Source: a virus. From it: DNA of 28,403 nt. A model generated the notes under the pieces. That model was not told the DNA's origin. It worked only from the letters and a program-made list of their open reading frames with translations, and did not search any database. Each line of letters opens with the position of its first letter. The stretch's first letter is position 1. Shown piece after piece: positions 3,249 to 26,781 of this stretch. The translations under genes and the position numbers were made by a program. The stretch is taken from positions 1 to 28,403 of the IMG/VR virus record IMGVR_UViG_3300031227_000302, one strand, 5' to 3'.

Positions 3249-3270
3249 CAACGAGTAGGAGTACAACGAC

Positions 3271-9890: not shown

Positions 9891-10599
9891 ACCGATTACG
9901 ATGACGGCGATTACCACTGCGATTGCGAGTGCAGCCTCGGCAACGGCCGGTGCTGTCGGCACAGTCGTCGGGACTGGCGCTGTCGGCGCTGGCATGGGGC
10001 TTAACGCTGTCGGAATGACGACGCTCGGGGGTGCGCTTACGGCCGGTGGCGGTGCAATTGGCGGGATAGGCGGCGGCACGGCCGTGGCAGGTGGCGCGGC
10101 CAGTGCGTTCTCGTTGGGCGGATTGTTCGGCGAACTCGGGACATTGGGATCATTGGCCGGTGGCGTAGGCGGTGCGGTGCAGGCGAAGCAGGCGGCTGAC
10201 TTTCAAGCTGACATGGCCGGGAACAACGCGTTGATCGCAGAGTACCAGGCGGCAAACGCCGCGCACCGCGGCGAGATTGAACGAAACCTGATCCGGCGTC
10301 AGTTGGCGCAGGCCATAGGCGCAGGGCGCACAACCTACGCTGCGGGCAATGTGCAGCTCGGCAGCGGCTCACCTGCCGCGTGGGAATCGAACTCCGCGGG
10401 GCTCGCAGCCGAAGATATCGCGATGAGCGAGTACAACCAGGCCGTGGAACAGTGGGGCTATGGCGTCCAGGGCTCGAATGCGCGCACAACGTCGAAGCTC
10501 TACAAACGTCAGGGGCGTAATGTGCTTGGCGCGGGGCTGGTCAATACCGGAAGCTCGCTGCTGGCCGGGTTCGGTGAACTGAAGATGGCGAAAGGGTAG
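9883..10599 (+). CDS. Internal virion protein, T7 gp14-like
   Basis: This 238-residue protein begins MCEPITMTAITTAIASAASA, followed by a long Gly/Ala-rich hydrophobic stretch (to about residue 95) suited to membrane insertion. The second half is charged and helical, including NNALIAEYQAANAAHRGEIE and a GRTTYAAGNVQLGSGSP segment that is conserved in gp14-type proteins. T7 gp14 leaves the head at infection and forms the outer-membrane pore of the ejection conduit. ATG 9883 is chosen because the upstream frame extension overlaps the previous gene and does not look like protein of this family. GGAGA lies about 6 nt before it. Adjacent gp15- and gp16-position genes complete the set. Confidence 0.85.
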   Translation: MCEPITMTAITTAIASAASATAGAVGTVVGTGAVGAGMGLNAVGMTTLGGALTAGGGAIGGIGGGTAVAGGAASAFSLGGLFGELGTLGSLAGGVGGAVQAKQAADFQADMAGNNALIAEYQAANAAHRGEIERNLIRRQLAQAIGAGRTTYAAGNVQLGSGSPAAWESNSAGLAAEDIAMSEYNQAVEQWGYGVQGSNARTTSKLYKRQGRNVLGAGLVNTGSSLLAGFGELKMAKG

Positions 10600-10606
10600 G
10601 ACAGCG

Positions 10607-12325
10607 ATGCCGACAGTACCGACCTATCAGCGGCAGATCGGCCCGGCGGCGGTTCCCGGTGTGACGCAGAACATACAGATGCCCGCAAACCCGCTTCCCG
10701 GTGCGCTCGCGCAGGCAGGCGCCACGGCAACTGGTGTCGGCACTGCGCTGATGCGTCAGGTTCGCGTTAAACAGGCCGAAGATGATACCTATGCTGCGCA
10801 GACGGCGTATGCCGGTGCACAGGAAGCGTTGACGCGCTGGCAGGCCGGCGAGCTGCCGAAGCTGCGCGGCCTCGATGCGTCAACCCGGGCCGTTCAGGCG
10901 GCAGAGGGCACGCTTGCGGCGACGTATGACGGCGCTGTGCGAAGCCTGTCTCCGGATGCAAAGAAGCGGTTCGACGTGCATTGGGGCGGACTGCGAACGC
11001 GCGTGATCGGCGCGGCGGCCGGGCACGCGGCACGCGAACATGACGCAGCAGCGGAAAACGCGTACAAGGCACTGCGCGTTACGGCAGTTGAAGCAGCAGC
11101 CGGCGCCGAAACGGAGGAGGAGATTCAGAGCGCGCTTGCGCCGTTCCTCGCGTCTATGGGCGACCGCTTGCGTGGGCAGGCTCCGGAAGTCGTGGAATCT
11201 GAAATGGACACGCTTCAGTCGGACATCGGCACGGCCCGGTTGAACCGTGTGCTTACCGACATGGCCGCCGATCAGGATGAGGCAACGGTCGCAAAGCGCC
11301 GGGTGCATGCTCTCGAAGTGCTCGGGGAATACGGCAGTGTGCTCGGCTCTGACGCGGTGGACGCGTGGACACAGCGCATCGAGGGGCGCGCATCGTCGAA
11401 GACGGCCGCCATCGAACAAGCGCGTAACGAGTATTGGGATGACCAGATCAACCGCGGCCTGCTGAAGATGCAGCAGATCGGGGACGGCATGAGCCCGCGA
11501 GAGCGCGAGTTCAATACCGACATGATCATCGGGCAACTTGAAGCGACTCCGGACATGCCGCCGGAATATCAGCTCAAGGTCCAGCGGATTCGTTCTCTGT
11601 GGCTCAAAGAAACTGAACAGATGGTAAGCGAAGAGGGCCGGCGCCGGCAGGATGCGCGCACACACCTGGGTGATACACGGCTGCTCGATCTACGGCTGCG
11701 CTTTGCTGCCGGCCATGAGACTTCCGACAGCTACCGGCGTAAGCTCACGGAGCTGGCTGAAGACGAAACGGTCGGCACGCTGGGGGTACGCGGAAAGGTC
11801 GCGGGAGAAATCGAGCAGATCGTCGGTGGCAAGGTGTCGGAACTCGACCGGGCAACCGCAACCGCGATGAACGGCCTCGCTGACATGAACTACTTCCTGA
11901 ATCGCCACCTGGAGCGGGGCTCCGGCAACAACATGATTGACCGCACTGAAGACGTGTGGCAAGCGCAGATCGATGCAGTCAGCAAGAATCTCGCGAAGGG
12001 CGGCAAGGAGGCGGAACAGGCCATTGCCGACATGGACGCATTGGTCGAGCAGCGGCGTGAGGCCGACGTGCTGTTCGTCGAGGCTGAGCGGTTCCGCCAA
12101 GACTGGCTGCGGAAGAACGCAAAGCGCACCGATGTGTCGCCGAAAGAGTTCGAGGCGGCGTTGCGCCTGCACCTGGCAAGTGATAAGGCCGCCGCGCTGA
12201 AGGTCCGGTCTGCGACGGCGATGAGAGGTGTAGCGGACGGCATGGGGTTGCCGTTCACCCGTACCGTTTTAGCGCTCCCCCGCGCGGTTTATCGTGCCGT
12301 AGAGCGAGTGAGGACGCAACAGTGA
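10607..12325 (+). CDS. Internal virion protein, T7 gp15-like
   Basis: This 572-residue protein is almost entirely helical and charged, with the opening VPTYQRQIGPAAVPGVTQ and then QAEDDTYAAQTAYAGAQEAL, typical of gp15-position proteins in podoviruses. It continues in alpha-helical repeats to the end. T7 gp15 (about 750 residues) forms the periplasmic channel with gp16; this one is shorter. AGGACA precedes the ATG. The end overlaps the next gene by 4 nt (GTGA), so the giant protein is probably made by coupled translation. No catalytic motif was found. Confidence 0.78.
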   Translation: MPTVPTYQRQIGPAAVPGVTQNIQMPANPLPGALAQAGATATGVGTALMRQVRVKQAEDDTYAAQTAYAGAQEALTRWQAGELPKLRGLDASTRAVQAAEGTLAATYDGAVRSLSPDAKKRFDVHWGGLRTRVIGAAAGHAAREHDAAAENAYKALRVTAVEAAAGAETEEEIQSALAPFLASMGDRLRGQAPEVVESEMDTLQSDIGTARLNRVLTDMAADQDEATVAKRRVHALEVLGEYGSVLGSDAVDAWTQRIEGRASSKTAAIEQARNEYWDDQINRGLLKMQQIGDGMSPREREFNTDMIIGQLEATPDMPPEYQLKVQRIRSLWLKETEQMVSEEGRRRQDARTHLGDTRLLDLRLRFAAGHETSDSYRRKLTELAEDETVGTLGVRGKVAGEIEQIVGGKVSELDRATATAMNGLADMNYFLNRHLERGSGNNMIDRTEDVWQAQIDAVSKNLAKGGKEAEQAIADMDALVEQRREADVLFVEAERFRQDWLRKNAKRTDVSPKEFEAALRLHLASDKAAALKVRSATAMRGVADGMGLPFTRTVLALPRAVYRAVERVRTQQ

Positions 12326-15300
12326 GCGTGTTCGATCAAGAGAGTGTTGCTTCGGGGTTGCTTGGGACCGGCAGCGGGTTTGTGAACCCGAATGTCCTGC
12401 CGCCGCCGGAAGGCTTCGACGCACTGGCCGTCCAGCCAGGAAGCGGGAGCCTGGCGTTTCCGTCCGGCACCATGCCGTCCGGCCCGATTGATCACGGCAA
12501 GGCGCTGAATCTGATCCTCGGTGATTTCTTCGGACCCGATCCCTATGGCGTGCTTGAAGACGAAGCCAACGCGTCCGACGATCCCGTGCAGTTCAAGCGT
12601 CACCGGGCGATGGAGCACTTCCTTGCCTCGCGGTTTGCCGAGCCTATTGAAGCGGTGCAGGGCGATTTCGACCTGTACCTGCGCGAGTGGTTCGGCCCGG
12701 ATCGCTCCGAAGCGGACGCCTATCGCAGCATGCTCTCGCTGACGGGGCATGAGGAAGACCCGTTTGTTCCGCGCGTGCCGAAGGAGCCGGAAGGCCCGTC
12801 GTTCGGCGCACGGTTGCCCGGCATACTCGCCGGTAACGTCCGCAAGGCCGGCGACGTCGTGCGCACGGTTGCCGGCGCTGTCGTCGGCGAGGACGCGACC
12901 CAGGAGATTCCCGCGCTTGCTGTGCAGACGGTCGCCGGTGCCGTCAAGGACATCTACAAGATGGGCGGCGGGTTGAGCCCGGAAGAGGTCGAGCGGCGCA
13001 ACGAATGGGACCGGCAGGGCAAGCCGGTCTCCTACCGCGGCCACAAGAACTTTCTTCGTGGCGCGATGGGCACGGTGGCAAGCGCGTTGATCAGTCAACC
13101 TCAGTACGCGCTGTACGCGCTCGGGTTCAACCAGGCGGCGGCACGGCTTACGGAACTGGCCGGAGAAGCAAACAGACAATTTGGGCCGTTGCCGGTGACC
13201 GCACGGGGGGTCCGCGAAAAGAGCGGGACATGGGAATACTACGTGAGCCAAGAGTTCTGGACCAGCACCATGCCACAGACGGGAACAAGTATGGCCGTGT
13301 TCCTGGGGGAACTGTGGGCGTTCGCCGGTATAGCCCAAGCGTTCGGAGTCGCATCGCCGATGCTTCAGTACACGATGGGCGCAGTGGCCAGCTCTACGCT
13401 TGAAAGCGCGTGGAACGCGGGCCAGACCATGACGGACATAACCGGGGGCGGTGGCGTGCGTCTGACAGACGCACAGGATGAAGCGCTGTGCGCGGTCGAG
13501 GCGCTGCCGGAAGACATGCAGGGGTTCATTCTGAACGCAGCCGGGATGAGTGCGGCTATCGGCTACCGTAAGGCGCTCAGTGCGACGCATGACGAACGGC
13601 TGGCGCGCGATGGGGCCGACAAAGTGTTCTGGACCACGCTGCCGATGAATATTGCGTTTGACCTTCTGAGCGCTGGCGCGGGCGTGGCGGGCGTGAGGGG
13701 TTGGAAGGCCGGGTTCCGCGCGTCGGGCGTGCTGAGTGCATCGGCTGCAGGCTACTTCCAGGCTGAACAGGAGCTTAAACAGGATACCATCCAGAACGAC
13801 GCGCTTCCGGCTGTGGTTGCCGGACGTGCTATTTCCCTCGGCTTATTGCCTACCGACACGGTGCGCGCGTTGCTTCCCGGGGGCGATCCGGAAGCGCGTG
13901 ACACGGCCGTCGCTACACTGCTGCTGGGCGGGAAAAGCGCGATAGTAGGCTCGGCGTTCGACGCGGCGAACGCCAAACATCTTGCCGACCTCGAATCGCA
14001 CCAAAAACGGTACATGGGCACACTGAAGCAGGCCGCCGACGCGGGCTCGGTAGTGGCGCGGGCTCAGTACGAAGCTCTGTCGCGGCCGGTGCCCGGCAAC
14101 GACAAGAGCACAGCCCGCAGTCTGGGCGTGTACTTCAATCGCCTGCGCGACATGGCCGCACGCCGGTTCGTCGGCATCACGGCGGACGTGGCCGCAGCGG
14201 ACACAGCGGACGATGTGGGCGCCATTGATCCGGACGGTGTAACGGCCGATGAAATCGCCGCGATGGCCGATGAGATCGAAACGCAAATGGAGGAGGATCG
14301 GCAGTGGTTCGACGAACACCCGGCGGTTGAGGAGGACGCGGCAGGCGTCGAGACGGCAGAACCGCCGGTTGTCGATGATGCTGCAGTCGCGCCGGTTTCC
14401 GCCGAACCGGATACCGCGGAATCGGCAGCCGATACCGCAGCTGAGCCCGGCCCTGTCGAGCAGGTGCGCAGCGTCCTTGCTGTCCTTGAGTCGCTGAACC
14501 CGGCGGCCCGGAAGATGCGCGTTATCTCGGAAGCCGAGATTCCTGCCGCCTACAAGGCCCGGCTCCAGGAGGGGCAGCACATCCGCGGTTATCTCGACAC
14601 GGCAACCGGCGAACAGGTGATTGTCGGGGACGCCATTCAGGGCGACGTGGTCCGGTACGTTGTGGGCAAGTGGGCGCACGAGCAGAGCCACGCAGGCCTC
14701 AGCGGACTCTTCGGCGCCGACACGGCCGGGCGCGATGCGTTCCTCGACTGGGTGCAGCGGTCCATTGACCCGGAAGCGTTGGCGGGGTTGATCGACAAGA
14801 CCGGTATGACTGCAGACGAGACTCGCGCGGATCCGCAAAAGGCAATGCGCGTATCGGCTGAAGAATACCTGGCGCGCCTGGCTGAGAAGGTAGCGACCGA
14901 CGGGCCGCAGGCGCTGAACGCGAAGCAGTCCGGCATATGGGGTGCCGTGAAAGGCGCGATCGGGAAGCTGCTGCGCACCCTCGCGCAGAAGGCCGGTGTG
15001 CCGCTGACGCTGACCGACGCGGACCTTGAGGAAATCGCGGTATCCATGCTACGCGCGGCCGGTGTCGAACGCACACCACAACTGGCAGAACCGCAGACGG
15101 GCGCGGAACCGCCGCCTATTCCGGCATCGGCGCCCGCCCAACATGCGGCATTCACCCCGTCTAACCAGCTTCAACTTGCCCGCGATGCGGTGCGCAAGCT
15201 CTATCTCACCCCGTCCGATCGACGTGAACTGAAGGACGCCGGTATCAACCTTTCTCCGCGCTACGTCACCGGCAACTCCGCACACGGCATGAATTGGGAT

Positions 15301-18300
15301 CAGGCCGGACAGCTTATCGCCCGCGAGTATCCGGGGCTCGGGCTGAGTGAGGACAATACCGACATTGCCGAAGTTGCACGGCTGTTCGTCGGCAAGGCCG
15401 CGGACTTCGAGGTGCCGGACACGTCGGGGCAGCCGGGCGTGGTCGAAGCACGCGAGCTTGCCGTAGGTGACGCATTCACGGGGCCGGACGGCGAGGAAGA
15501 GATTGTTGTCGAGAAGCGCGCCGACGGGAGCATTGTCACCGCCGACGGCATTGTGCGGCAGCATGACGGCAGTGCCATTGTCGCAGCGGAAGAGGAAGTT
15601 GGCCGGGCTACGGCCGACGAAATGGACGATGCCGAAGAGATGGTCGCACGACACGAAGCGGATGCGGGGGGAGTTACCCGCTTCGACATCGGGGACGATC
15701 GGACCTTTTCCGAAGCCGAGATTGCCGCAGTCTTCAAAAGCGCCGTCAAAAACATGGGGCTGACCAAAGATATTCGCGAAGCCGGCTATGTCCTGCCGGA
15801 CGGCCGAATGCTGGACTTCAGCGGAAAACGTGACGGCGGGGATAGCGGCGTGCGCTACATGGATCACCGCGAGATCGACTATGACGGCGCGGAGGGCTAC
15901 AACGAGCCGATGGTCAAGTTTCTGCGTATGGGTGCTCTTCGTATTGATGCCAACCTGGGCATGGTCAGCGCCGAAGCGCCATTGTCCAGCAAGCAACGCC
16001 AGGCCGCGGAGCTTGTGCTCGCAGACGGCGGTTGGGTGGACGGCGAGCGGAAGGACATGAAGCGCTACTACGTTGAGGTCGTAGACGGCAGTAAGGCCAG
16101 GCGCGCGCTTGGTGAGCTTCAGCGGTTCCTCAAGGGGGAAGATGTAGAGTCGCATACACTGTTCAGCATCGACGCCGACGCGCAAGGCACCTTTGCCGGG
16201 CTCCTGGGTGACGTAGGGCTGAAGCGCCTTGAACAGTACGCCGCGGGTGTGCTCGACATGCCGAAGCTCCCGGACTGGGCCAAGGCGAAAGCGCGCAACA
16301 CCATTGCCAAGGCGCGGTCCGGTGCGATCACGGATCCGCAGGCGGCCTATGACGACCTGACGCGCACGCTGAACGCGGCGGCGAAGATGGCCGACCGCAC
16401 GCCAAGCCGCGGCGTTCAGCAGCAAGGCGACCTGTTCGGGGGCACGGGACCGGGGCAGGGGACGCTGTTCAGCATCGAGGACGATGCACGCCGCCTGGTT
16501 GGTTCCATGCGATACGCGCGCGGCTCGACCATGGCGCGCAGTGCGGCAGCAGAGTTCCTGAACAAGCCGCTGCACAATCGGGAGACGGGCATCGTGGCAA
16601 CAGTGTCGGGGAGTTCCCTGGGCAAGATGCTGAGTCGGAGCGCTGTCGATCAGTCCATATCTCCGCAGGCGCACATGCAGGCCGTGGCCAATCTGGACCG
16701 ACTGTTTCCGGTGGCGATTCCGCGTTTAACACGTTCTGATCGCAATAATGACCCGACAGTGAAGGCGTTGCACCATTTCAGTGTGCCGATGCCCTTCGAC
16801 AGCGACGTACTGCACGTCAAGATTATGGCCAAGGAGTTCAGGCAGTCAGGGCAAGGGACCAGGCTGTACCTGGTGCAGGCGGTAGAAATAGTGAAGCCCG
16901 CTTCATGGTTAAAGGTGCAGCCGACCTCGTCAGAGACCACGCCGGGCTACGATCCGCTAGCGGGCTTCAATGGGAAGATACAGCAATTCACGGACGCTGT
17001 CAAGGCGGCAATGGAAACGCAGGCTGGTGACGACATCCGGTTCGACATCGGAGACGCTGAAGCCAGCGCCCCGCCGTCTGTCGGCGCACGTGAGCGCGTG
17101 GTAGCGCTGGTACTCGCCGAACGCGACTTGCACGCACGGCCGCTCGGTGTGCGCGCTGTCGGCAACCGTCTGGAAGCGCTTGGGCTCCCGCGCACCTCAG
17201 CCGCCGCGGTCATGGACGAAGCGAAGGCGATAGCCGACGGGTTCCGCGCCGAGCGTGCCGACGTGGCGCGGGACGAAGACATTCTCGATGCACTGCTCAC
17301 GAAGGAACTGCGGACAGCCTTTACCAGCGGGATGGACACGGCCGCCGACACGGGCGCGGCACAGCAACGGCAGATAGAAAACGCGTATCGGCAAATTGAG
17401 ATGTGGAAGCGCAAGCGCGTGCAAGCACTGGCCGCCTCACGCCCGGGGTTGTCGGATGCCGAACTCGCAGCGGCCGGACAGAGCAACCTGTCTCAGCGCA
17501 TGGCCGACGTGGTCGATACCTGGGTACCGCCGGGAAAGAAGGCGCATGCACCGCAAGCCGAAGAGGCACAACCGGAGAAAAACGCGAAGCACGACGCGGC
17601 CGATGCAGACGAGTTCGACGCGGCCACGCTCGATGCCGCGGAGCACGCCGAAGAGGACGTAGCGCTGGCACCGTTGCCCGCGGAACTGCCGAGCGACCCG
17701 GTGGACCTGGCGGCGCTGAAGCAGACGATTGCGGAACGTGCAGCGGCGAAGCTTACCGCCGAAGGCTACAAGGTCCGCGGCAACGGCAACACGGATCCGG
17801 TATTGCGCAAGGAGATCGCGGTCACCTGGGCGCGGTTGCTGCGCGGTGCTGCCTGGGAACACGTGCCACACGGAGCACAGCGGGAATGGATCGTCGATGC
17901 TCTGCGAAGACTCGAACTTCAGCCGCCGACGGTCGCCGGCGCCGGCCGGCGCGTGTCGCAACTCGCCTATTGGCTGAGTCGTGCCGCAATAAAGGCGGAC
18001 GCCGACGTCATTGTCAAACGCATTGACAAACTCTTGAAGCTGAAGCGCGTGAAGAGCAAGGGCAGCACACGCACTGAACTGATCAAGCGCGAGATCGAGC
18101 CCGCGGCCAAGGCATGGTTGCGGCTGGTCAAGTCCGTGTACAAGGTGGGCGAAGTCAAGAGCAAGGAACTGCTCGACACCCTGCGCGCGCTCGATGAACA
18201 ATGGGATCTCGGGCAGATCGACGCCGACACACTGCGCGAACGGCTCGGACTGATTTCCGGCGGGCTCGCGACCGATCCGGTGTATCTCGCGATGGACCCG

Positions 18301-20430
18301 GCGGACGCGATAGACGAGGCCATGCGCGCACTTGCGAAGTACGGCGCCATCCGGCACCGGTCTCCGGCGGACATCCGGCAGGCACTCGATGAGCTGCAGC
18401 GTGACTATGACGAGGGTGTCGCGGCGATTGCCGAAGCACGTCAGCGCCGACGCGACCGAATGGGACCGATCCGCGAAACGATTGCGGCGGCCGTACGCAC
18501 AGCACCCCTGGTCGGTCGCCAGGACGGTTTGAAAGCGGGGCTGAAAAAGCTGGCACGCGGCAACTATGACTTCTATCAAGGGATGCGTGATCTTGTACGT
18601 TTCGCCAAGGGCGACCTGCACGAAGATGCAGTTGACGCGATCATGAACCTGTCGATGCAGATTCAGGAGTCACACGATGCCTACCACGCCTATGTAGGGC
18701 GAACGCGTGAGGCCATTGCCGCCGCTGTTAAAGAGATATACGGGCACTGGGACGTTGAGAAAGTGCTGAAGGATCTGGAAAAGCCGCTGGCAACGTTACA
18801 GCAGTTCTCGCGCAATCCCGAAGGCCGCGTGCAACTGTCGCACTCGAACCTGCTGGCGATAATCGCGATGCTCGATCAGGAGCACTTTGCGCGCAACGCA
18901 GAGAAGTTCGACCGCGCCGGAACATACCTGGCCGACCTGAAGGCGGCGGTTTCCGAGCAAGATCTGAAGTTCCTGGACTGGCTGCGTGAGTCCTATCACG
19001 ACAACCGCCCGGAGATTTCCGCCAAGAGCGTGGACGTAAACGGTGTCCCCGTCGTCTCCCCGGACGCGCTCTATCATCCGGGCAAGGTAGCACGCGAAGC
19101 GGCGGGGCTCGCCGAGTTCCATTACACCCTGCAACTCGCGCCGGAAACCTTCGAACAACGGCGCCGGCACAACTGGGATCTTGACGAAACCGCCAGTGTT
19201 GTCGGACTGTACCATCTGTATGCCGACCGGAACGCGCGGTTCCTCAGTCACGTCGATCTTGCGCAGGATATGCGCTATGTGTTCGGGCATCCGGACACGC
19301 GTCGCGCGATCGAATCGCGCATCGGCAAAAAGGGCGCAGCACAGTTGCTGGAATACATCACAAAAGTCGTGCGCGGCCGCAACTTCGACAAGGGCACCGC
19401 AGGCCATGAAGTGCATTCAAGGGTGCGCGGCATCAGCACGCTTACAGTAATGAGTGGCAATGTCGGCTCCGGCATCCGCCAACTCTGCGCAGTCGGCGGT
19501 GTGCCTATGGCGGCCGGCGCAATGAACAGCGCGAAAGCGGTTGCATGGCAGATTGCGCACCCCAAGCGCTGGCGGCAGATCGTCAACGAGATGAAAAAGA
19601 ACCCATCATTCCGCCAGTGGGCAACGCGCGGCTACCTCGAAGCTGTGGACAACGCTATGCACGGAACAGATCCGCTGACGCGGTTCCTGCAGCTCGGCAT
19701 GGTCGTGCAGTCGGCAGGCATCCAGGGCGCGACGTTTCTTGTTGTGCCGGGCCTGTACGAGGCGCGCAAGAAAGACCTCATCGGGCAGGGGCTCACGCCT
19801 GAGCATGCCGCCGAAAGAGCGATGACCTGGGCGAACTGGCTGGTGCATCATACGCAGGGCAGTGCACAGACAGCAACAACCGCGATTGAGATGCTGAGCA
19901 GGGAAGAGGCGGGGAAGTGGATCATGATGTACACCGGTCCGCTGACGCAGTTGTACGGTTGGGAGCAGCGTGCGTTCCGTGAGGTAGCGGCGGGCACACC
20001 TGGAGCTAAACGGCAGATCGGCAATGTACTGCTCGCCAATCACGTTGTTATCCCGAGCTTGTATATGCTTGGCATGGCATTGCAGTCGACGGTAGTTGGC
20101 AAGTTCCGCGACCGCCCCGACAAAGAAGTAGAACGGCTGCTAAAGCGGTGGGCGGCCATGATGGTACTCGGTCCCGTGGGAGGCGTGTTCCTGCTCGGGC
20201 CTGTTATCGAAACCTTCGTAGACATAGGGTTCGGCCAATCATTCGGCGGCGGTGGCATGCCGGTAGTCGAGCAGCTTACGCGCCTCGGCGCTTCCGGTTA
20301 CAGCCTGATGGAACATACGCTTATCGACTGGGATCCGGTGGAGATGGCGAAGGACTGGAACCGGATTATGAGTCAGGTTTCCGCGCCCTGGCGCGACACG
20401 AGCCGGGCAATTGAAAACTGGTCAGACTGA
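12322..20430 (+). CDS. Giant polyvalent DNA-ejection protein (gp16 position) with zincin motif
   Basis: The 2702-residue protein occupies the place of T7 gp16. The first 600 residues hold hydrophobic segments (about 249-273, 322-345, 438-460). Residues 786-790 are HEQSH (HEXXH), followed by SAEEYLARLAEK with E847/E848, the layout of zincin-like domains of phage polyvalent proteins. Further on: a beta domain near 1040-1085 (VGDAFTGPDGEEEIVVEK), a YVLPDGRMLDFSGK/GVRYMDHREI domain at about 1130-1275, and an LPD3- or PBECR-like unit at about 1400-1530 (MLSRSAVDQSISPQAHMQAV). The linkers RFDIGD (1120 and 1573) and TLFSI (1279 and 1381) separate these. The rest is helical, with two hydrophobic segments at about 2572-2590 and 2611-2637. 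No lytic transglycosylase motif was seen. GTG start overlaps the previous stop by 4 nt. Domain names are from motif memory. Confidence 0.85.
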   Translation: MSVFDQESVASGLLGTGSGFVNPNVLPPPEGFDALAVQPGSGSLAFPSGTMPSGPIDHGKALNLILGDFFGPDPYGVLEDEANASDDPVQFKRHRAMEHFLASRFAEPIEAVQGDFDLYLREWFGPDRSEADAYRSMLSLTGHEEDPFVPRVPKEPEGPSFGARLPGILAGNVRKAGDVVRTVAGAVVGEDATQEIPALAVQTVAGAVKDIYKMGGGLSPEEVERRNEWDRQGKPVSYRGHKNFLRGAMGTVASALISQPQYALYALGFNQAAARLTELAGEANRQFGPLPVTARGVREKSGTWEYYVSQEFWTSTMPQTGTSMAVFLGELWAFAGIAQAFGVASPMLQYTMGAVASSTLESAWNAGQTMTDITGGGGVRLTDAQDEALCAVEALPEDMQGFILNAAGMSAAIGYRKALSATHDERLARDGADKVFWTTLPMNIAFDLLSAGAGVAGVRGWKAGFRASGVLSASAAGYFQAEQELKQDTIQNDALPAVVAGRAISLGLLPTDTVRALLPGGDPEARDTAVATLLLGGKSAIVGSAFDAANAKHLADLESHQKRYMGTLKQAADAGSVVARAQYEALSRPVPGNDKSTARSLGVYFNRLRDMAARRFVGITADVAAADTADDVGAIDPDGVTADEIAAMADEIETQMEEDRQWFDEHPAVEEDAAGVETAEPPVVDDAAVAPVSAEPDTAESAADTAAEPGPVEQVRSVLAVLESLNPAARKMRVISEAEIPAAYKARLQEGQHIRGYLDTATGEQVIVGDAIQGDVVRYVVGKWAHEQSHAGLSGLFGADTAGRDAFLDWVQRSIDPEALAGLIDKTGMTADETRADPQKAMRVSAEEYLARLAEKVATDGPQALNAKQSGIWGAVKGAIGKLLRTLAQKAGVPLTLTDADLEEIAVSMLRAAGVERTPQLAEPQTGAEPPPIPASAPAQHAAFTPSNQLQLARDAVRKLYLTPSDRRELKDAGINLSPRYVTGNSAHGMNWDQAGQLIAREYPGLGLSEDNTDIAEVARLFVGKAADFEVPDTSGQPGVVEARELAVGDAFTGPDGEEEIVVEKRADGSIVTADGIVRQHDGSAIVAAEEEVGRATADEMDDAEEMVARHEADAGGVTRFDIGDDRTFSEAEIAAVFKSAVKNMGLTKDIREAGYVLPDGRMLDFSGKRDGGDSGVRYMDHREIDYDGAEGYNEPMVKFLRMGALRIDANLGMVSAEAPLSSKQRQAAELVLADGGWVDGERKDMKRYYVEVVDGSKARRALGELQRFLKGEDVESHTLFSIDADAQGTFAGLLGDVGLKRLEQYAAGVLDMPKLPDWAKAKARNTIAKARSGAITDPQAAYDDLTRTLNAAAKMADRTPSRGVQQQGDLFGGTGPGQGTLFSIEDDARRLVGSMRYARGSTMARSAAAEFLNKPLHNRETGIVATVSGSSLGKMLSRSAVDQSISPQAHMQAVANLDRLFPVAIPRLTRSDRNNDPTVKALHHFSVPMPFDSDVLHVKIMAKEFRQSGQGTRLYLVQAVEIVKPASWLKVQPTSSETTPGYDPLAGFNGKIQQFTDAVKAAMETQAGDDIRFDIGDAEASAPPSVGARERVVALVLAERDLHARPLGVRAVGNRLEALGLPRTSAAAVMDEAKAIADGFRAERADVARDEDILDALLTKELRTAFTSGMDTAADTGAAQQRQIENAYRQIEMWKRKRVQALAASRPGLSDAELAAAGQSNLSQRMADVVDTWVPPGKKAHAPQAEEAQPEKNAKHDAADADEFDAATLDAAEHAEEDVALAPLPAELPSDPVDLAALKQTIAERAAAKLTAEGYKVRGNGNTDPVLRKEIAVTWARLLRGAAWEHVPHGAQREWIVDALRRLELQPPTVAGAGRRVSQLAYWLSRAAIKADADVIVKRIDKLLKLKRVKSKGSTRTELIKREIEPAAKAWLRLVKSVYKVGEVKSKELLDTLRALDEQWDLGQIDADTLRERLGLISGGLATDPVYLAMDPADAIDEAMRALAKYGAIRHRSPADIRQALDELQRDYDEGVAAIAEARQRRRDRMGPIRETIAAAVRTAPLVGRQDGLKAGLKKLARGNYDFYQGMRDLVRFAKGDLHEDAVDAIMNLSMQIQESHDAYHAYVGRTREAIAAAVKEIYGHWDVEKVLKDLEKPLATLQQFSRNPEGRVQLSHSNLLAIIAMLDQEHFARNAEKFDRAGTYLADLKAAVSEQDLKFLDWLRESYHDNRPEISAKSVDVNGVPVVSPDALYHPGKVAREAAGLAEFHYTLQLAPETFEQRRRHNWDLDETASVVGLYHLYADRNARFLSHVDLAQDMRYVFGHPDTRRAIESRIGKKGAAQLLEYITKVVRGRNFDKGTAGHEVHSRVRGISTLTVMSGNVGSGIRQLCAVGGVPMAAGAMNSAKAVAWQIAHPKRWRQIVNEMKKNPSFRQWATRGYLEAVDNAMHGTDPLTRFLQLGMVVQSAGIQGATFLVVPGLYEARKKDLIGQGLTPEHAAERAMTWANWLVHHTQGSAQTATTAIEMLSREEAGKWIMMYTGPLTQLYGWEQRAFREVAAGTPGAKRQIGNVLLANHVVIPSLYMLGMALQSTVVGKFRDRPDKEVERLLKRWAAMMVLGPVGGVFLLGPVIETFVDIGFGQSFGGGGMPVVEQLTRLGASGYSLMEHTLIDWDPVEMAKDWNRIMSQVSAPWRDTSRAIENWSD

Positions 20431-20463
20431 AACACGCGCACCTATTATGAAAGGACTCTCACA

Positions 20464-20769
20464 ATGCCGGACATCATTCATGGACCGCGATTCTACTTTG
20501 GTGATTACGTTCCTACGAACGTGAGCGTGTTGGTCACTGCAACAACTCTGCTGGCTGCAGATGCTGCCATCAGACGGGTGCAGCTTACGAATCTCGGGGC
20601 ATACCCGGTGTACTTCTGCCATCTGAACCAAACGCCACTGGTCAACAAAGGCTTCTACATTGCTCCGAATGGCGGGGTCTTCATCTTCGATGCGGACTGC
20701 GCTCCGATAGGCGGCATTTCCGCTATCGCTGACGGTGGAACGAGCATCGTTGCTGTCGGCAGGGGGTAA
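20464..20769 (+). CDS. Small beta-sandwich virion protein, unassigned
   Basis: This 101-residue protein has the pattern VSVLVTATTLLAADAAIRRV, QLTNLGAYPVYFCH, NGGVFIFDADCAPIGGISAI and a C-terminal TSIVAVGRG. Such short beta-sandwich proteins are frequent in phage structural regions (decoration or fibre-associated), but I cannot assign a role. AAAGGA at about 20450 is the ribosome-binding site, and the gene starts 33 nt after the giant protein stops. It opens the accessory tail block and is followed within 6 nt by a Cys-rich gene. Confidence 0.7.
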   Translation: MPDIIHGPRFYFGDYVPTNVSVLVTATTLLAADAAIRRVQLTNLGAYPVYFCHLNQTPLVNKGFYIAPNGGVFIFDADCAPIGGISAIADGGTSIVAVGRG

Positions 20770-20775
20770 ACCTCG

Positions 20776-21183
20776 ATGATTTGGGCCTCACCAGGCAATA
20801 CACCTCCGGACATGTTCGATGATGAAGTGCCGCCGCCAAGCAATGACTGTACGACATGTGCCGCGAACTGCGTTGGCGGGGATATCTCTGCAGTGTTCAC
20901 CACTACCGGGGCTGGCGGCTGTGCCTTCCCGTCCGGACCTTACACCCTGTCCTACATTGCAGGGTGCCAGTGGAAGTTTGATGATGGGGTGTACCGGATC
21001 AGCCTTGACTGCGTGGCGAACGCTTGGTATCTCTATGCAGAAATCATCGGCATCAACGGAGTCTACAGGGACTTATCGCCGCAACTGGTTTGCGGGGGGG
21101 ATCATCCAACTGGGAGCGGCACGCTGACCGGAACCATCGGTGAGCCTTGCGAGGGTCAGACCGGCACATGGAGCTTTGCATGA
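20776..21183 (+). CDS. Cys-rich small protein (8 cysteines), unknown
   Basis: This 135-residue protein carries eight cysteines: three in DCTTCAANC near residues 24-32, then GGCAF, AGCQW, LDCV, LVCGG and EPCEG. The body is rich in beta-strand and Gly patterns (GPYTLSYIAG, GVYRISLDC, GSGTLTGTIG). A Pro/Asp-rich leader (TPPDMFDDEVPPPSND) precedes the first cluster. There is no signal peptide. The even number of cysteines fits disulfides formed after release or a metal site, but neither is shown. A G-rich ribosome-binding site (AGGGGG) lies 9 nt upstream. The stop overlaps the next start (ATGA). I do not recognise a family. Confidence 0.62.
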   Translation: MIWASPGNTPPDMFDDEVPPPSNDCTTCAANCVGGDISAVFTTTGAGGCAFPSGPYTLSYIAGCQWKFDDGVYRISLDCVANAWYLYAEIIGINGVYRDLSPQLVCGGDHPTGSGTLTGTIGEPCEGQTGTWSFA

Positions 21184-21395
21184 CGTGGTTTGACAGTCAG
21201 CATTGTCTGAGCCATACGCATTGCTGGAAATGCCGGGACAAAACTGGTGGTCGCGACTTTCGTCGGCAACTGAAGGAGACGTTCAAGGACGTGCGGAAAC
21301 AGGACTTTGAATGTCCGCATGGCATAGCGTGGGGTGCGACTCTACCAAGGCGCGCGATGGCACAAACACCGTGCAGTAACTGTCCAGGTCTGTAG
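21180..21395 (+). CDS. Zinc-ribbon-like small protein (6 cysteines)
   Basis: This 71-residue protein starts at ATG 21180, sharing ATGA with the previous stop; an earlier in-frame ATG at 21147 would extend into that gene and is not preferred. Cysteines fall in CLSHTHCWKCRDK, in FECPHGIAWGA and in CSNCPGL, that is CxxC pairs at both ends plus one before His, with a basic helix (RRQLKETFKDVRKQ) between. Small proteins with a CRDK...GR...ECPHG...WG pattern occur in other phage genomes but have no role known to me. A structural zinc site is the likely reading. Confidence 0.6.
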   Translation: MTWFDSQHCLSHTHCWKCRDKTGGRDFRRQLKETFKDVRKQDFECPHGIAWGATLPRRAMAQTPCSNCPGL

Positions 21396-21416
21396 TCTGA
21401 GTGAAAGGGTCGATCA

Positions 21417-21803
21417 ATGGTAGGACATATCTTTGCTTTCCCAAGTGGGACCGCCGGGGTGAGCGGGACCGTGGAACTCGACTTCGACTACGAACTGAAG
21501 CGCAGTGATGCGGGACGGACGTTTGTCGTTAACAAGGCCAGTTTGGTTACGTTAAGTCTGCTCGCCGGAGCGGCAGAGCATGTCGGGGTAACCTACTACT
21601 TCGTGAAAGCTGGTGCTGGCAATGTCATCATCCAATTGCAGAGTGACGATGTCGTGGCTGACTCAAGCGCCAACGGGACCATACAAGACACAACCGCTGC
21701 GGATGCCGGGTGGGCAAATCTCACGCTGCGTCTCGTCTCGTTTGCGGCTGGTGTCGGAACGTGGGTGATACTGTCCGGTCATGGGACATGGGAGACAACG
21801 TAA
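21417..21803 (+). CDS. Beta-rich fibre-like small protein
   Basis: This 128-residue protein is made of beta-strand patterns with Gly/Ser turns: VSGTVELDFDYELKRSDAGR, TFVVNKASLVTLSLL, VTYYFVKAGAGNVIIQL and GTWVILSGHGTWETT. This arrangement resembles domains at the tips or shafts of tail fibres, including the common C-terminal WV...G.W end. AAAGGG at about 21404-21409 is a suitable ribosome-binding site. It is followed one base later by the fibre gene, so the two may form one fibre. The role is inferred from pattern and place. Confidence 0.6.
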   Translation: MVGHIFAFPSGTAGVSGTVELDFDYELKRSDAGRTFVVNKASLVTLSLLAGAAEHVGVTYYFVKAGAGNVIIQLQSDDVVADSSANGTIQDTTAADAGWANLTLRLVSFAAGVGTWVILSGHGTWETT

Positions 21804-21804
21804 T

Positions 21805-23490
21805 ATGTGCCGCAAACTGACTGCTTCCTGCCTGGTGATGTCGTTGATCCTACTTGCTGCCGTGACTGCCTGGGGTCAGTCCGTCTATCCGTTCGGGACG
21901 ACACGACCACGGTTTTCGCACGTCGGCATCGGGTCTGCTCCGGATGCAACCGCGCATATCAAGGTTGCCTACGACGCGGCAGCGTATACCCTGGTGACCC
22001 AGGCAGACGGTGCCGGGATGGTCTTCGACTGCACCAGTGACGGGACTGCTTCGTTTACATTCAACGATCCTATAATCGCCGCGATTGCGGGTCTGAGTGG
22101 TGACCTCACGCTGGACGATGGGGTGGGTGATAGTCCGTCGCTGATCTTCATTGACGCTGACAACAATACGTTTACGGTTCTCAAGCTGGACGCTGGCGCG
22201 GCAACGCTGACGAATGACGAAGGTGCGATCAACCTGCTCCCGAGTGGCGATTCCGACGACTACTTCACCTTCACCACTGCGGCCAATGTTCCCACGATCG
22301 GAACGGTCGGCGCGTGCAATCTCAACATCACCGCAGGCGGCGGGGGCATAGGGTTCGCGGACGAGAATCTGAGCACGACGGGGTCCGTGTCCGGCGGGAC
22401 GCTAACGGATGGCACGGCCAGTATCACCGGGGGAGCGTTGACCGGACTCACCACTCCGCTGACTGCCGCGCAAGGTGGGACGGGGCTGGCGGCCTTGAGT
22501 GCCAATGTGGTAACTCTCCTTGGCGCCGCGAACTTCGCTGCCTTCAAAACCTCGCTCTCGTTGAACAACGTCGAGAACACTGCGCTCTCGACCTGGGCCG
22601 GGACGTCCAACCTCACTACCCTTGGGGCAATCGCCTCGTGCACGAGCCTCACGAGCGCAGGGACGATCCAGGGCGGAACGCTGACGGACGGCACGGCGTC
22701 CCTGACGGCCGGAAGCCTCACCGCTGTGAAGCTCGGTACCCTGACCAGCAACGGGTTCGTCAAGACGTCCGGTGGGGACGGCACACTCTCGGTTGACACG
22801 GCGACGTATCAGGCCAGCGACGCAGAACTCTCCGGCATTGCAGGCCTCTCCGGAACGGGCCTCGTCGCCAAGACCGGCGCCGGGACCTTCTCCGAGCGCA
22901 CCGTGACCGGGACGGCAAACGAGGTGACTGTCACGAACGGGGATGGCGTCAGCGGGAATCCGACGCTCTCGATCCCGGCCGTAGTAGACCTTGGCGGGAA
23001 GACTTCAGTCGAGCTACCGAACGCCGCTGATCCTGCTGTCACTGTGGCGGGGCAGTTCGCACAGGACACAACGGACGGAGCATTAATCGGGTATGACGGG
23101 ACCGCGGAGCGTGTCTACGCTCACCCGGTTGAGCAGTTCAGCTTCACGGTCTACGACGATACGGACTGGGCGAGCGAGGCTGTCCCGGTGTGGACGGCCC
23201 CGAAAGACATGGCCATCACGATAACGCAGGTTCACGCCGTCTCGATGGGTACGACCCCGTCGCTTGCCTACAACATCGAAGAGCGGGCCAAGGCGGGTAT
23301 GGCCTCTGCTGGCACGGACATCTACGCCGCAGACCAAGCGGCTGATGCTACCGGGGAAGACGAGACTTCGTTCAGCAATGCTGGTATTGCCGCCGGGGCG
23401 CATCTTGTGTTCACCACTGCCGCCGCTCCCGAGACAGGCACTGTTGATCTGATCCACGTCGTGGTCTACTACACGAGGGACGTGGAATGA
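21805..23490 (+). CDS. Tail-fibre protein with N-terminal signal peptide
   Basis: ATG 21805 gives a 561-residue protein opening MCRKLTASCLVMSLILLAAV and TAWGQS, a plausible Sec signal peptide (basic start, hydrophobic core, AWG-Q site). The upstream in-frame ATG 21781 would add eight residues inside the previous gene. The body is fibre-like: AAQGGTGLAAL, LNNVENTALSTWAG and GLVAKTGAGTFSERTVTGTA/NEVTVTNGDGVSGNPTLSI are motifs widespread in phage tail fibres. GGTLTDGTAS occurs twice. The last 120 residues form a beta-sandwich-like tip (FSFTVYDDTDWASEAVPVW). The end overlaps the sulfotransferase start (ATGA). A signal peptide is odd for a virion fibre. Confidence 0.8.
   Translation: MCRKLTASCLVMSLILLAAVTAWGQSVYPFGTTRPRFSHVGIGSAPDATAHIKVAYDAAAYTLVTQADGAGMVFDCTSDGTASFTFNDPIIAAIAGLSGDLTLDDGVGDSPSLIFIDADNNTFTVLKLDAGAATLTNDEGAINLLPSGDSDDYFTFTTAANVPTIGTVGACNLNITAGGGGIGFADENLSTTGSVSGGTLTDGTASITGGALTGLTTPLTAAQGGTGLAALSANVVTLLGAANFAAFKTSLSLNNVENTALSTWAGTSNLTTLGAIASCTSLTSAGTIQGGTLTDGTASLTAGSLTAVKLGTLTSNGFVKTSGGDGTLSVDTATYQASDAELSGIAGLSGTGLVAKTGAGTFSERTVTGTANEVTVTNGDGVSGNPTLSIPAVVDLGGKTSVELPNAADPAVTVAGQFAQDTTDGALIGYDGTAERVYAHPVEQFSFTVYDDTDWASEAVPVWTAPKDMAITITQVHAVSMGTTPSLAYNIEERAKAGMASAGTDIYAADQAADATGEDETSFSNAGIAAGAHLVFTTAAAPETGTVDLIHVVVYYTRDVE
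22393..22719 (+). repeat. Diverged internal repeat of the fibre gene
   Basis: GGCGGGACGCTAACGGATGG from 22393 and GGCGGAACGCTGACGGACGG from 22672 start two related units 279 bp (93 codons) apart. Both encode GGTLTDGTAS(I/L)T. The unit is likely one shaft repeat of the fibre. Confidence 0.6.
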
Positions 23491-24206
23491 GCAACCCCGT
23501 CACATATCGGACGCTCCGCACGGTCCAACACCGATACCCCGCCGAGCGTGTGGAGCGTGATCGTTTGTTCAACGTCTTTGTCCTCGGTCTCCCGAGAAGT
23601 GGCACCTCTATGATGACCAAGTGCGTCGAACTCCTTGGCGTGAAGATGGCATACACGACTGAGGAGGATGAGGCCCGGAAACGCAGGGACGCCCGATACA
23701 AGCGCAGTCTCGGAGCAGACTATCATCCGAACCGGGACGGGTTCTTCGAGATCACCCGCCAGAACCTATGGGATTGCTACACGCGGATCATGCAGACCCC
23801 ATATTCTGGGTGTAAGATGATTGTGCCCGTGACTCCTGCCGACCCCCGAATGTGGGTGCTCCGTTTCCAGCCCCGGACCCGTGTCATCTTGAACGTGCGC
23901 GATGCCGAGTGTGTGCGGCAGAGTCAGCAGGCTTTCTACGGAGGCGACCGGGAGCAGTCGGCAGAAGAGATTCGCAAATGGCTGTCTCGTATACACACGG
24001 TCTACCAGCAGCAGGCGAAATGGTTGACGCAGATGGGCGTGAAAGTTGCGACGGTTCCCTACGAGCGCGTCCTTGAAGACCCACGGGGGAGCATGGGGAT
24101 CATTGCTGAGTTCATCAACGCCCCGAACCCGATTGACGCGGCTGTTGCCAACGTGAAGCGGGATCAGTGTCGGTTTAGCCCAGATACGATTGAGGCGGGA
24201 ATATGA
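23487..24206 (+). CDS. Sulfotransferase family protein
   Basis: This 239-residue protein carries the PAPS-binding signature of sulfotransferases: FVLGLPRSGTSMMTK, with the 5'-phosphosulfate loop at about residues 34-42, and VILNVRDAECVRQS, where R138 and S146 stand 8 residues apart as in the 3'-phosphate site of known SULT enzymes. The family moves a sulfuryl group from PAPS to a hydroxyl or amine of a glycan, lipid or protein. It has no signal peptide, so it acts in the cytoplasm. It is embedded between a fibre and an adhesin gene with ATGA overlaps at both ends, so it is co-translated with them. The acceptor is unknown; a surface glycan or a virion glycan are possibilities. Confidence 0.88.
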   Translation: MSNPVTYRTLRTVQHRYPAERVERDRLFNVFVLGLPRSGTSMMTKCVELLGVKMAYTTEEDEARKRRDARYKRSLGADYHPNRDGFFEITRQNLWDCYTRIMQTPYSGCKMIVPVTPADPRMWVLRFQPRTRVILNVRDAECVRQSQQAFYGGDREQSAEEIRKWLSRIHTVYQQQAKWLTQMGVKVATVPYERVLEDPRGSMGIIAEFINAPNPIDAAVANVKRDQCRFSPDTIEAGI

Positions 24207-25483
24207 GTCCACTGCCAGCCGAGTTACAGCCTTCTATCGACAAGCCGATCGAGATGATTCCGATACGGAACAGGCATTCGCGCTGCTACAATCTCGGTGG
24301 CCGTAGACGGCGATTCCACTCCAGCCCTGCTGCCCTGCACTTTCAGCGACATGACAGCGAATTATGGGAGCCGGTTGACCTCTCCATCGTGAGTGGATTG
24401 ATGGAGAAGGCCGACTACAGCTTCCGACTGCTCGATGGCAAGGTGGGGTACTCGGGGATGGACCCCGAGGGACTGCCATTTGAACTTGAGTTGATGGGTG
24501 TTAAGTACAAGGAGCCGGTGATTGTCGGCAACAAGGCAGTGTGGGAGAATATTGAGAAGGGCGTGGACTTCGAGATCACGCTTGGCACTCGGGCTATTCG
24601 CGTTGTGCGTGTGCTGAAGACTTCCGCAGCGAATCGGGAAGCGGTCTATCGAAGTTACCGTCTGCCCTCCGCTCGTGGTGGCATACTGAATCTCGGGAAG
24701 GATCGGAATCGGAAACCTACCGAGTTGAGCATGTCCGACGTGCTGACGGCGCGGCAGAACGAGAGGCTGTTCACGCAAGTTTGGACGGGCCGAGTCAAGC
24801 GCATGGACCCTAAGACCCGTCGTCGCGAGTGGTACGACGATCCAGTTTACCCTGTCCGCATCGACCCCACGAGCACCTTCGACCCGACGGCAGGACTCGA
24901 TGGAAAAGCCCGTTGGTTCTATGCAACGTTCAGTTCGCCGCAGACGGTGCAGAGTTATTGTGGGAACAGTAGCCTCTACGTGACGATTAAGGAATTCACC
25001 TCGACCACAGGGGCGCTCGATTTTAAGACTCAAGGATGGTTCGTCTTTCCGATTACAGGGATTTCAAAGGGTGACACGATCAACGATGCGACGCTCAATC
25101 TGCGTGCGCAGATAGGGGATAGTGGGACAACCGCCTATTTTGACTGCGAAGACCTTGCGGACCCTGCCGCACCGACGAGTGGTGAGCGTCAGCGTATTGA
25201 TACGAACTGGGACCCCGAAACGGCAGCCTCCAGCGCCCATAGTTTCACTCAGAACGCCTCATGGCACGATGAGGCGGTGAACGTGAAGACTGCGATTGCG
25301 GGGATGGTTGCGGCCTACGGCTACACCGATGCCAACATACTGATTCGAGGATCCAACCAGACCGACCGTAGCGTCAAAATCGCAATGGTAGATCACCCCG
25401 ACGAAGCGGCTCCCGAGTTGGTGATTGATTACACTGCTGGTGGCGGAGCAACTTCACGACGCAGGATCGTCATTACGGGATGA
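24203..25483 (+). CDS. Adhesin-like protein with DNRLRE-type beta domain
   Basis: In this 426-residue protein, residues 1-210 form a beta-rich region (LPFELELMGVKYKEPVIVG, VDFEITLGTRAIRVVRVLK) ending in DDPVYPVRIDPTSTFDPT. The YPVxIDPT element commonly precedes DNRLRE or CBM96-like domains of bacterial surface proteins. Residues about 225-420 fit such a beta-sandwich: WFVFPITGISKGDTINDATL, NVKTAIAGMVAAYGY, NILIRGSNQTDRS, and PELVIDYTAGGG near the end. These domains bind polysaccharide in the families I know. It is probably a receptor-binding or fibre-associated protein. It overlaps the sulfotransferase gene by 4 nt. No signal peptide and no enzymatic motif were seen. The domain call is from pattern memory. 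Confidence 0.65.
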   Translation: MSPLPAELQPSIDKPIEMIPIRNRHSRCYNLGGRRRRFHSSPAALHFQRHDSELWEPVDLSIVSGLMEKADYSFRLLDGKVGYSGMDPEGLPFELELMGVKYKEPVIVGNKAVWENIEKGVDFEITLGTRAIRVVRVLKTSAANREAVYRSYRLPSARGGILNLGKDRNRKPTELSMSDVLTARQNERLFTQVWTGRVKRMDPKTRRREWYDDPVYPVRIDPTSTFDPTAGLDGKARWFYATFSSPQTVQSYCGNSSLYVTIKEFTSTTGALDFKTQGWFVFPITGISKGDTINDATLNLRAQIGDSGTTAYFDCEDLADPAAPTSGERQRIDTNWDPETAASSAHSFTQNASWHDEAVNVKTAIAGMVAAYGYTDANILIRGSNQTDRSVKIAMVDHPDEAAPELVIDYTAGGGATSRRRIVITG

Positions 25484-25681: not shown

Positions 25682-26284
25682 ATGAGAACAAGAATCGGAC
25701 AAGCCTGGAGTGATCATTGTGGCGGCAACCTTGGGGCGATACTCCTGCTTTTGTGCGTGATGATCTGCTGCCTGCTGGCGGCGGGCTGCAGGACGAAGAC
25801 ACCAACGGTGGCCATCGAGAATCTGGGCGGGTACATCGTCCATAACCATCCAGGATCGGATCCCGTGACTACATGCGGATCCACCGACACGAATGTCGTG
25901 GACGTGCCGAAAATCAAGATCGAGCCGGTTGAAACATCCCCAGGCGAGTGGGGCGTGAAGCTGACCGCGAAGGACGACGAGGAGGATTCCATAATCGTCG
26001 CCGGCGGGGGCGGTATCATCAACAAATTCGGAACCACGGCCACAGCCAGCCGGGAAATGGACATGAGCAGTGTTATGACCATGCTCCAACGGACCCTGGG
26101 TGCCGCCGGTGTTACCGTGCCGACGGGCCAGCGCGAAGGCACGGCCCAGGGGGAAACAACCGTGGACATGCAACAACTCCGCAAGCTGCTGCTCGCTGCC
26201 CAGAAGGAGGGGATGCTCGAGGTCCAGCCCGACGCGGCCAAGGGGGCACCTGTCATGCCGCCAAAGGATCCAGTCACCCCATGA
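25682..26284 (+). CDS. Lipoprotein with signal peptide and lipobox
   Basis: This 200-residue protein starts at ATG 25682, after a strong AGGAGG. The N-terminus has an arginine region (MRTRIGQAW) and a hydrophobic core (GAILLLLCVMICCLLAAGC) with a lipobox LAAGC and the acylated Cys at 36; the next residue is Arg, not Asp, so outer-membrane sorting is likely in Gram-negative hosts. The mature part is soluble and acidic, with a glycine run (IIVAGGGGIINKFG) and a helical segment (TVDMQQLRKLLLAAQKEGM). I know no family for it. Phage lipoproteins serve as o-spanins, immunity proteins or cell-surface modifiers; at 200 residues it is large for an o-spanin. Its stop overlaps the hydrolase start by 4 nt (ATGA). 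Confidence 0.75.
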   Translation: MRTRIGQAWSDHCGGNLGAILLLLCVMICCLLAAGCRTKTPTVAIENLGGYIVHNHPGSDPVTTCGSTDTNVVDVPKIKIEPVETSPGEWGVKLTAKDDEEDSIIVAGGGGIINKFGTTATASREMDMSSVMTMLQRTLGAAGVTVPTGQREGTAQGETTVDMQQLRKLLLAAQKEGMLEVQPDAAKGAPVMPPKDPVTP

Positions 26285-26781
26285 TGCCCGAGTCAGAACT
26301 TCCGCGAGAGGCAGTGGTCGGCTTCTGGCGAGGCCGGTCATTGCTCTCGCGTGTTATTCGCTGGCAGACGCGCTCGCCATATTCTCACGTCGGCTGGCGT
26401 TGCCCCGATGGCACGGTGATTGAGGCATGGGCGGGTATGGGTGTGCGCCATGTGGCAAATGCGTCTATCGCGCATACGCCCGGAACCGAGATAGACTGGT
26501 TTGATCTTGACGGCTTAACCGAGAGCGCCAGGGATCGCCTTGAGGGGTTCCTAGTGGGGCAGTTGGGATTGCGGTACGACTATCGCAGCGTATTTCGGTT
26601 CCTGACTCGGGGCAATCGTCAGGACAATCGGAAGGCTTGGTTCTGCTCTGAACTAATTGCTGCAGCGATGTGTGCTGCTGGCCTTCCGCCGTTGTCGCCG
26701 CGAGTGGAGAACTGGCAGATTTCGCCGGCATTACTCTCAATGAGTCCACGCCTGTTCTTGATCGGAAGGATACAAGGATGA
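26281..26781 (+). CDS. Permuted papain-like (YiiX or NlpC/P60-related) hydrolase, candidate endolysin
   Basis: This 166-residue protein carries both halves of a permuted papain-like active site: His36 in SPYSHVGW with E48 in TVIEAW, and Cys122 in WFCSELIAAAM. In permuted NlpC/P60 or YiiX-type enzymes the His-containing strand precedes the Cys-containing helix, as here. Such enzymes cleave amide bonds in peptidoglycan or lipid substrates. Its location next to a lipoprotein and a one-span membrane protein at the end of the late operon suggests it is the endolysin. No signal peptide is visible, so it would need help to reach the periplasm. ATG 26281 overlaps the previous stop; ATG 26284 is an alternative start. 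Confidence 0.75.
   Translation: MMPESELPREAVVGFWRGRSLLSRVIRWQTRSPYSHVGWRCPDGTVIEAWAGMGVRHVANASIAHTPGTEIDWFDLDGLTESARDRLEGFLVGQLGLRYDYRSVFRFLTRGNRQDNRKAWFCSELIAAAMCAAGLPPLSPRVENWQISPALLSMSPRLFLIGRIQG

Follow-up and report, generated by a model that had tools for sequence, protein, structure and literature searches.

A sulfotransferase gene paired with an adhesin-like gene among the tail genes of an epsilon15-like phage: a possible enzyme for sulfating the phage's own adsorption proteins

A temperate epsilon15-like podovirus carries, between a fiber-like gene and an adhesin-like gene, a gene whose product is likely a catalytic PAPS-type sulfotransferase, judging from its sequence, and the same enzyme-adhesin pair recurs in phages that are otherwise unrelated. 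This conserved pairing appears to be new. We favor, at somewhat less than an even chance, a reading in which the enzyme sulfates the phage's own fiber or adhesin, or a glycan on either, late in infection, and we place this reading ahead of sulfation of the host surface. If it is correct, phages tune adsorption by sulfation, a chemistry more familiar from the surfaces of animal cells and also proposed for the glycans of giant viruses. Sulfotransferases recur in viral metagenomes, where they are filed as auxiliary metabolism without a known role (PMC10580990); its conserved pairing with a gene for host binding in unrelated phages points to a specific substrate, a hypothesis that three recombinant proteins would suffice to test.

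The Phage and Its Tail Region

The window, that is, the whole stretch of DNA analyzed here, comprises 28,403 bases, is listed as a virus record in IMG/VR, and encodes an epsilon15-like portal and a GP7-type capsid protein. A second contig, G001 (39,077 bases), is 99.97% identical to the window and permuted relative to it, and it contributes primase/helicase genes, a terminase, and a complete serine recombinase, the last of which points to a temperate lifestyle. Combined, the two contigs point to a genome about 43.9 kb long. G001 ends exactly at window positions 20418 and 25257, and one stretch of the window is missing from it.

20419 to 25256, plus strand: stretch missing from G001 (fiber region, sulfotransferase, and most of the adhesin gene), abutted by the two ends of G001; a break in the contig, and no proof of a deletion or of a variable cassette

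Its absence from G001 may mean that the tail region varies between strains, or the assembly may simply have broken there; when further contigs spanning the left junction at 20418 were sought, only G001 itself was returned.

Several other genes of this phage are worth recording in their own right. A near-identical phage contig (L050) has a PemK/MazF-like toxin gene at 17240 to 17542, directly before the terminase. Window positions 12322 to 20430 encode a 2702-aa protein for which Pfam gives a single match, to the LPD3 polyvalent-protein domain. A small gene at 26281 to 26781, with no Pfam match, falls within a region that matches phrog_1128, "enoyl-CoA hydratase-like," a label that may mislead, as the encoded sequence seems more like a papain-type amidase.

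The genes central to our argument are the following.

21781 to 23490, plus strand: upstream fiber-like gene, 569 aa; match to phrog_697 "structural protein" (E 3.1e-12) and a VGIG-type fiber motif
23487 to 24206, plus strand: sulfotransferase gene, 239 aa, an intact ORF with no apparent signal peptide; three Pfam sulfotransferase families over cut-off and an AF2 model
24203 to 25483, plus strand: downstream adhesin-like gene, 426 aa, conserved as partner to the sulfotransferase; homologues lie just 3' of both closest sulfotransferase homologues
24938 to 25426, plus strand: DNRLRE-like domain of the partner, residues 246 to 408; NF033679 at 22.5 bits (E 9.6e-5), below the NCBIfam cut-off of 34

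The sequence-only reading had described ATGA overlaps on both sides of the sulfotransferase gene, and both are there: at 23487-23490 the stop of the fiber-like gene overlaps the sulfotransferase start, and at 24203-24206 the end of the sulfotransferase gene overlaps the start of the adhesin-like gene. Given these overlaps, the enzyme would be made in step with fiber and adhesin. When scanned for sigma-70 patterns, the surroundings of the sulfotransferase gene yielded no promoter-like site, and the position of the gene suggests late control.

The putative adhesin role of the partner is suggested by its weak DNRLRE match together with a weak match of one homologue, that in the viral contig L082, to the PHROG "virion structural protein" (E 3e-4); the AF2 model of the partner has a pLDDT of 38.8. 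As for the fiber-like gene, an alternative start at 21805 yields a signal-peptide-like N terminus (MCRKLTASCLVMSLILLAAVTAWGQS), which is unexpected in a virion fiber, and the N terminus of a fiber-like gene in another viral contig (L079, 4176 to 6080) resembles it. Acidic-flanked tyrosines occur in both neighbors of the sulfotransferase, an occurrence that in itself proves nothing.

A Likely Catalytic Sulfotransferase

The assignment as a PAPS-type sulfotransferase in the adsorption block is upheld by three Pfam families, each over its curated cut-off: Sulfotransfer_3 (PF13469; E 3.6e-10, 40.9 bits against 27), Sulfotransfer_4 (32.2 bits against 22.8), and Sulfotransfer_1 (27.8 bits against 22). 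Neither PHROGs nor NCBIfam returned a family for the protein. The cofactor motifs are intact.

23586 to 23609, plus strand: codons of the 5'-PSB (PAPS-binding) loop, G34-LPRSGT-S41; G34 and P36-S41 invariant in 50 homologues
23748 to 23750, plus strand: codon of E88, candidate catalytic base; invariant in 50 homologues
23898 to 23924, plus strand: 3'-PSB pair R138...S146; both invariant in 50 homologues and aligned with VRD...S of human TPST2

Aligned, these 50 homologues agree without exception at G34, P36-M42, G85, E88, R138, and S146, and the full GLPRSGTS is invariant within the clade of the window protein. The earlier reading had named loss of R138/S146 or of the 5'-PSB loop in homologues as evidence that would count against it; every one of the 50 keeps them. 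The AF2 model of the enzyme has a mean pLDDT of 79.6, with a well-predicted core and the lowest values at the N terminus and the last residues. In the PDB it matches tyrosylprotein sulfotransferases best and other PAPS enzymes next (E 1.9e-6), with a superposition on the solved enzymes that is only moderate (TM about 0.5). The family profile also matches cytosolic sulfotransferases in the PDB at 7e-8. By sequence the protein does not qualify as a tyrosylprotein sulfotransferase: the single-sequence comparison gives an E of 0.08, and only general sulfotransferase Pfam families match. The invariant cofactor residues and the fold and profile matches thus make cofactor binding likely, and from them we infer activity.

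An Enzyme-Adhesin Pair in Unrelated Phages

The closest homologues of the enzyme are 38-44% identical to it (43% for L082 and 38% for L081/L084), and the window, L082, and L084 enzymes form one clade with support of 100/100, in which the window protein sits on a long branch. L082 and L084 are long-tailed phages, the former with a tape measure and a GpJ-like tail tip and the latter with a tape measure and a tail fiber, and each has its sulfotransferase in the tail module. There the sulfotransferase is followed immediately, in either phage, by a homologue of 24203-25483 (E 5e-20 and 2e-19), and these two partner homologues are 35% identical to each other. The two phages have little else in common. 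When the listed window proteins were searched against both, no other window gene was found; that search returned only the sulfotransferase and the L082 partner, the L084 partner coming from a separate comparison. As no other window gene was found in these phages, the enzyme and the adhesin-like gene seem to travel as a pair, and a pair common to otherwise unrelated genomes suggests joint inheritance and joint function. The sulfotransferase-adhesin cassette that we propose here is thus present in three phages of differing tail type.

Two further loci carry a more distant type of sulfotransferase than the window clade. One (L188) has a related sulfotransferase type followed by a DNRLRE-like gene (E 1.9e-7, just below the cut-off); the other (L077), an epsilon15-like relative by its tail genes, has after its sulfotransferase a gene that weakly matches the partner profile (E 3e-5). 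A profile scan for further adhesin relatives returned the L082 contig only, and the two partner homologues had no match among phage records. A separate feature of L082 is its GpJ-like tail-tip protein (6947 to 11650), which bears an N-terminal HINT domain of the self-splicing type.

How widely is the enzyme itself distributed? A tblastn search of the window sulfotransferase against 50,697 phage records found no relatives, a search of phage records with the L082 enzyme and four more distant viral members found none either, and the window enzyme had no match among plasmid records. A single-protein scan of viral contigs for relatives was likewise empty; a scan of viral contigs for the degenerate loop pattern GLPRSGTSMM gave 15 loci, two of them close (L082 and L081/L084). 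None of the 33 epsilon15-like records, many of which are fragments, carries the gene, so it looks like an accessory acquisition, and its link with tail genes is one seen across unrelated phages and not among near relatives. The expectation that the gene would keep company with tail genes is therefore borne out by the closest homologues, which lie in tail modules beside the same partner, but not within the phage's own group. The related remark that sulfotransferases are unusual in tail operons is also right in part: the subfamily is absent from the phage records searched, but enzymes of this type are met repeatedly among the virion genes of uncultured viruses.

Neighbors of Other Viral Sulfotransferases

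Among the loci inspected, virion genes lie near the sulfotransferase in the window and in ten others.

L082, L084, L077, L183, and L182: tail or fiber genes nearby
L184: major head and tail fiber nearby
L173: head closure nearby
L175: minor tail nearby
L180: major head nearby
L079: tail nearby

Nearby virion genes were not shown at L178, L086/L087, L187, and L176. Small phage contigs consist in large part of structural modules, so position by itself carries little weight and the count of loci is suggestive only. More telling are the neighbors that encode APS kinase, the enzyme that makes PAPS. Such a gene lies directly upstream of the sulfotransferase in two unrelated records, L175 (5193 to 5651, 133 bits) and L180 (5474 to 5800, 49 bits, partial). 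In L079, at 2572 to 3803, a glycosyltransferase-like gene (below cut-off) overlaps the sulfotransferase gene, downstream of a fiber-like gene, and L187, a member from the viral collection, lies in an apparent glycan-biosynthesis cluster. In the window phage, neither a glycosyltransferase nor an APS kinase was found, and G001 likewise yielded no APS kinase.

What Might the Enzyme Sulfate?

In the model that we favor, a soluble, cytosolic, PAPS-dependent sulfotransferase would be produced together with the tail proteins, drawing on PAPS supplied by the host. It would transfer sulfate from PAPS to the fiber (21781-23490), the adhesin (24203-25483), or both, and the acceptor would be either a side chain such as tyrosine, modified directly, or a glycan carried by one of these proteins. 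PAPS is cytosolic and the enzyme has no apparent signal peptide, so sulfation would precede virion assembly. The negative charge added to the adsorption surface could then tune host binding or shield that surface. The model builds on what can be read from the DNA (the family, the intact cofactor motifs, the overlaps, the adhesin pair in three phages, and the APS kinase beside relatives) and extends from there to enzyme activity, late expression, substrate, and benefit, all of which we infer. The sequence-only reading had left both a host surface glycan and the virion as possible substrates, and the conserved pairing leans toward the virion. A bolder generalization would be that tailed phages use a dedicated late enzyme to sulfate the proteins with which they bind their receptors, perhaps on tyrosine, and that the gene for this enzyme travels in a cassette with the gene for its adhesin substrate, at times accompanied by an APS kinase gene. 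We offer it tentatively and regard it as rather doubtful; no description of a virion posttranslational modification of this kind in tailed phages was found in the literature.

Could the enzyme act on the host instead? Sulfation of a host surface glycan, or of its cytosolic precursor, might keep progeny from rebinding to debris or make lysogens resistant to superinfection, and it would amount to a new type of receptor change. In bacteria, surface glycans are frequent targets of sulfotransferases, the L187 gene has its apparent glycan-biosynthesis setting, and the window phage, with its serine recombinase, is temperate. Moreover, the gene sits between the fiber and the recombinase, which starts 2.9 kb downstream, in a region where conversion genes are common; temperate phages keep lysogenic-conversion genes near the fiber-integrase boundary, and we count this placement against sulfation of the virion. 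Even the pairing can be accommodated if the adjoining adhesin binds, or coevolves with, the altered receptor. Nonetheless, host sulfation would not require the enzyme to keep one adhesin family as its partner in phages that are unrelated, neither a membrane partner nor a glycan-synthesis gene lies nearby, and the overlaps on both sides and the lack of a promoter-like site of its own speak against a lysogeny gene. On balance, we consider sulfation of the host surface unlikely, although it is the most serious competitor.

We think it improbable that the enzyme is a metabolic or small-molecule sulfotransferase, an auxiliary metabolic gene brought into the tail operon by chance drift. Sulfotransferases in viral metagenomes are usually filed in this way (PMC8290583, PMC12285232), and the sulfotransferase-like gene of the isolate phage FoX4 lies outside the tail genes; recurrent placement among virion genes and a conserved adhesin partner would nevertheless be unexpected for a general metabolic gene. 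More improbable still is a noncatalytic or chaperone-like descendant of a sulfotransferase that aids adhesin folding or assembly, as fiber-adjacent phage assembly chaperones do. Such a role would suit a gene that directly adjoins its partner and a protein on a long branch, but E88 and every cofactor-binding residue are retained although identity is below 45%, and the APS kinase beside two relatives points to catalysis. Finally, we give almost no credence to a DNA-base modification enzyme, which has in its favor only a literature proposal that phages modify DNA bases by means of glycosyl- and sulfotransferases (Iyer et al. 2013, cited in PMC10829341) and against it the location of the gene with tail genes and the G001 early region, where replication and recombination genes are present and no base-modification gene occurs among the G001 proteins scanned.

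Comparison with Known Systems

The short bacterial Sulfotransfer_3 proteins (GLPRSGTSMM motif) and their TPR-fused forms share the cofactor motifs and length class of the window protein and, like it, have an NPxGYxE-like motif with the invariant E88. They differ in that bacterial homologues in the genome scan reach at most 32% identity among the matches listed, whereas two phage proteins share a clade with the window protein (100/100). TPST1/2 are the best solved-structure matches of the window model, and their PSB motifs align with it; however, the eukaryotic enzymes are located in the Golgi, and the window enzyme is apparently cytosolic.

Phage sulfotransferases are already known (PMC10580990, PMC8290583, PMC12285232), and their function has been stated to be unclear (PMC10580990). 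Those of phages and cyanophages filed as auxiliary metabolic genes (such as those of S-SRM01, OM43 phages, and FoX4) belong to the same broad family as that of the window, but the FoX4 gene belongs to a block on the opposite strand, outside the tail genes, in contrast to a tail operon with a conserved adhesin partner. We found in the literature neither a link between sulfotransferases and phage tails nor a demonstration of sulfation of a tailed-phage virion. Precedents for virus-coded enzymes that probably modify the virion surface, as we propose for the window enzyme, are the capsid glycosylation reported for the mycobacteriophages Che8 and Rita (PMC11256854) and a giant-virus glycosylation cluster that combines a sulfotransferase with an APS kinase (Ma457/Ma461) (PMC10117803). 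The window phage differs from these systems in that no glycan genes were found in it, but the giant-virus arrangement, a sulfotransferase beside an APS kinase, is the one seen in L175 and L180.
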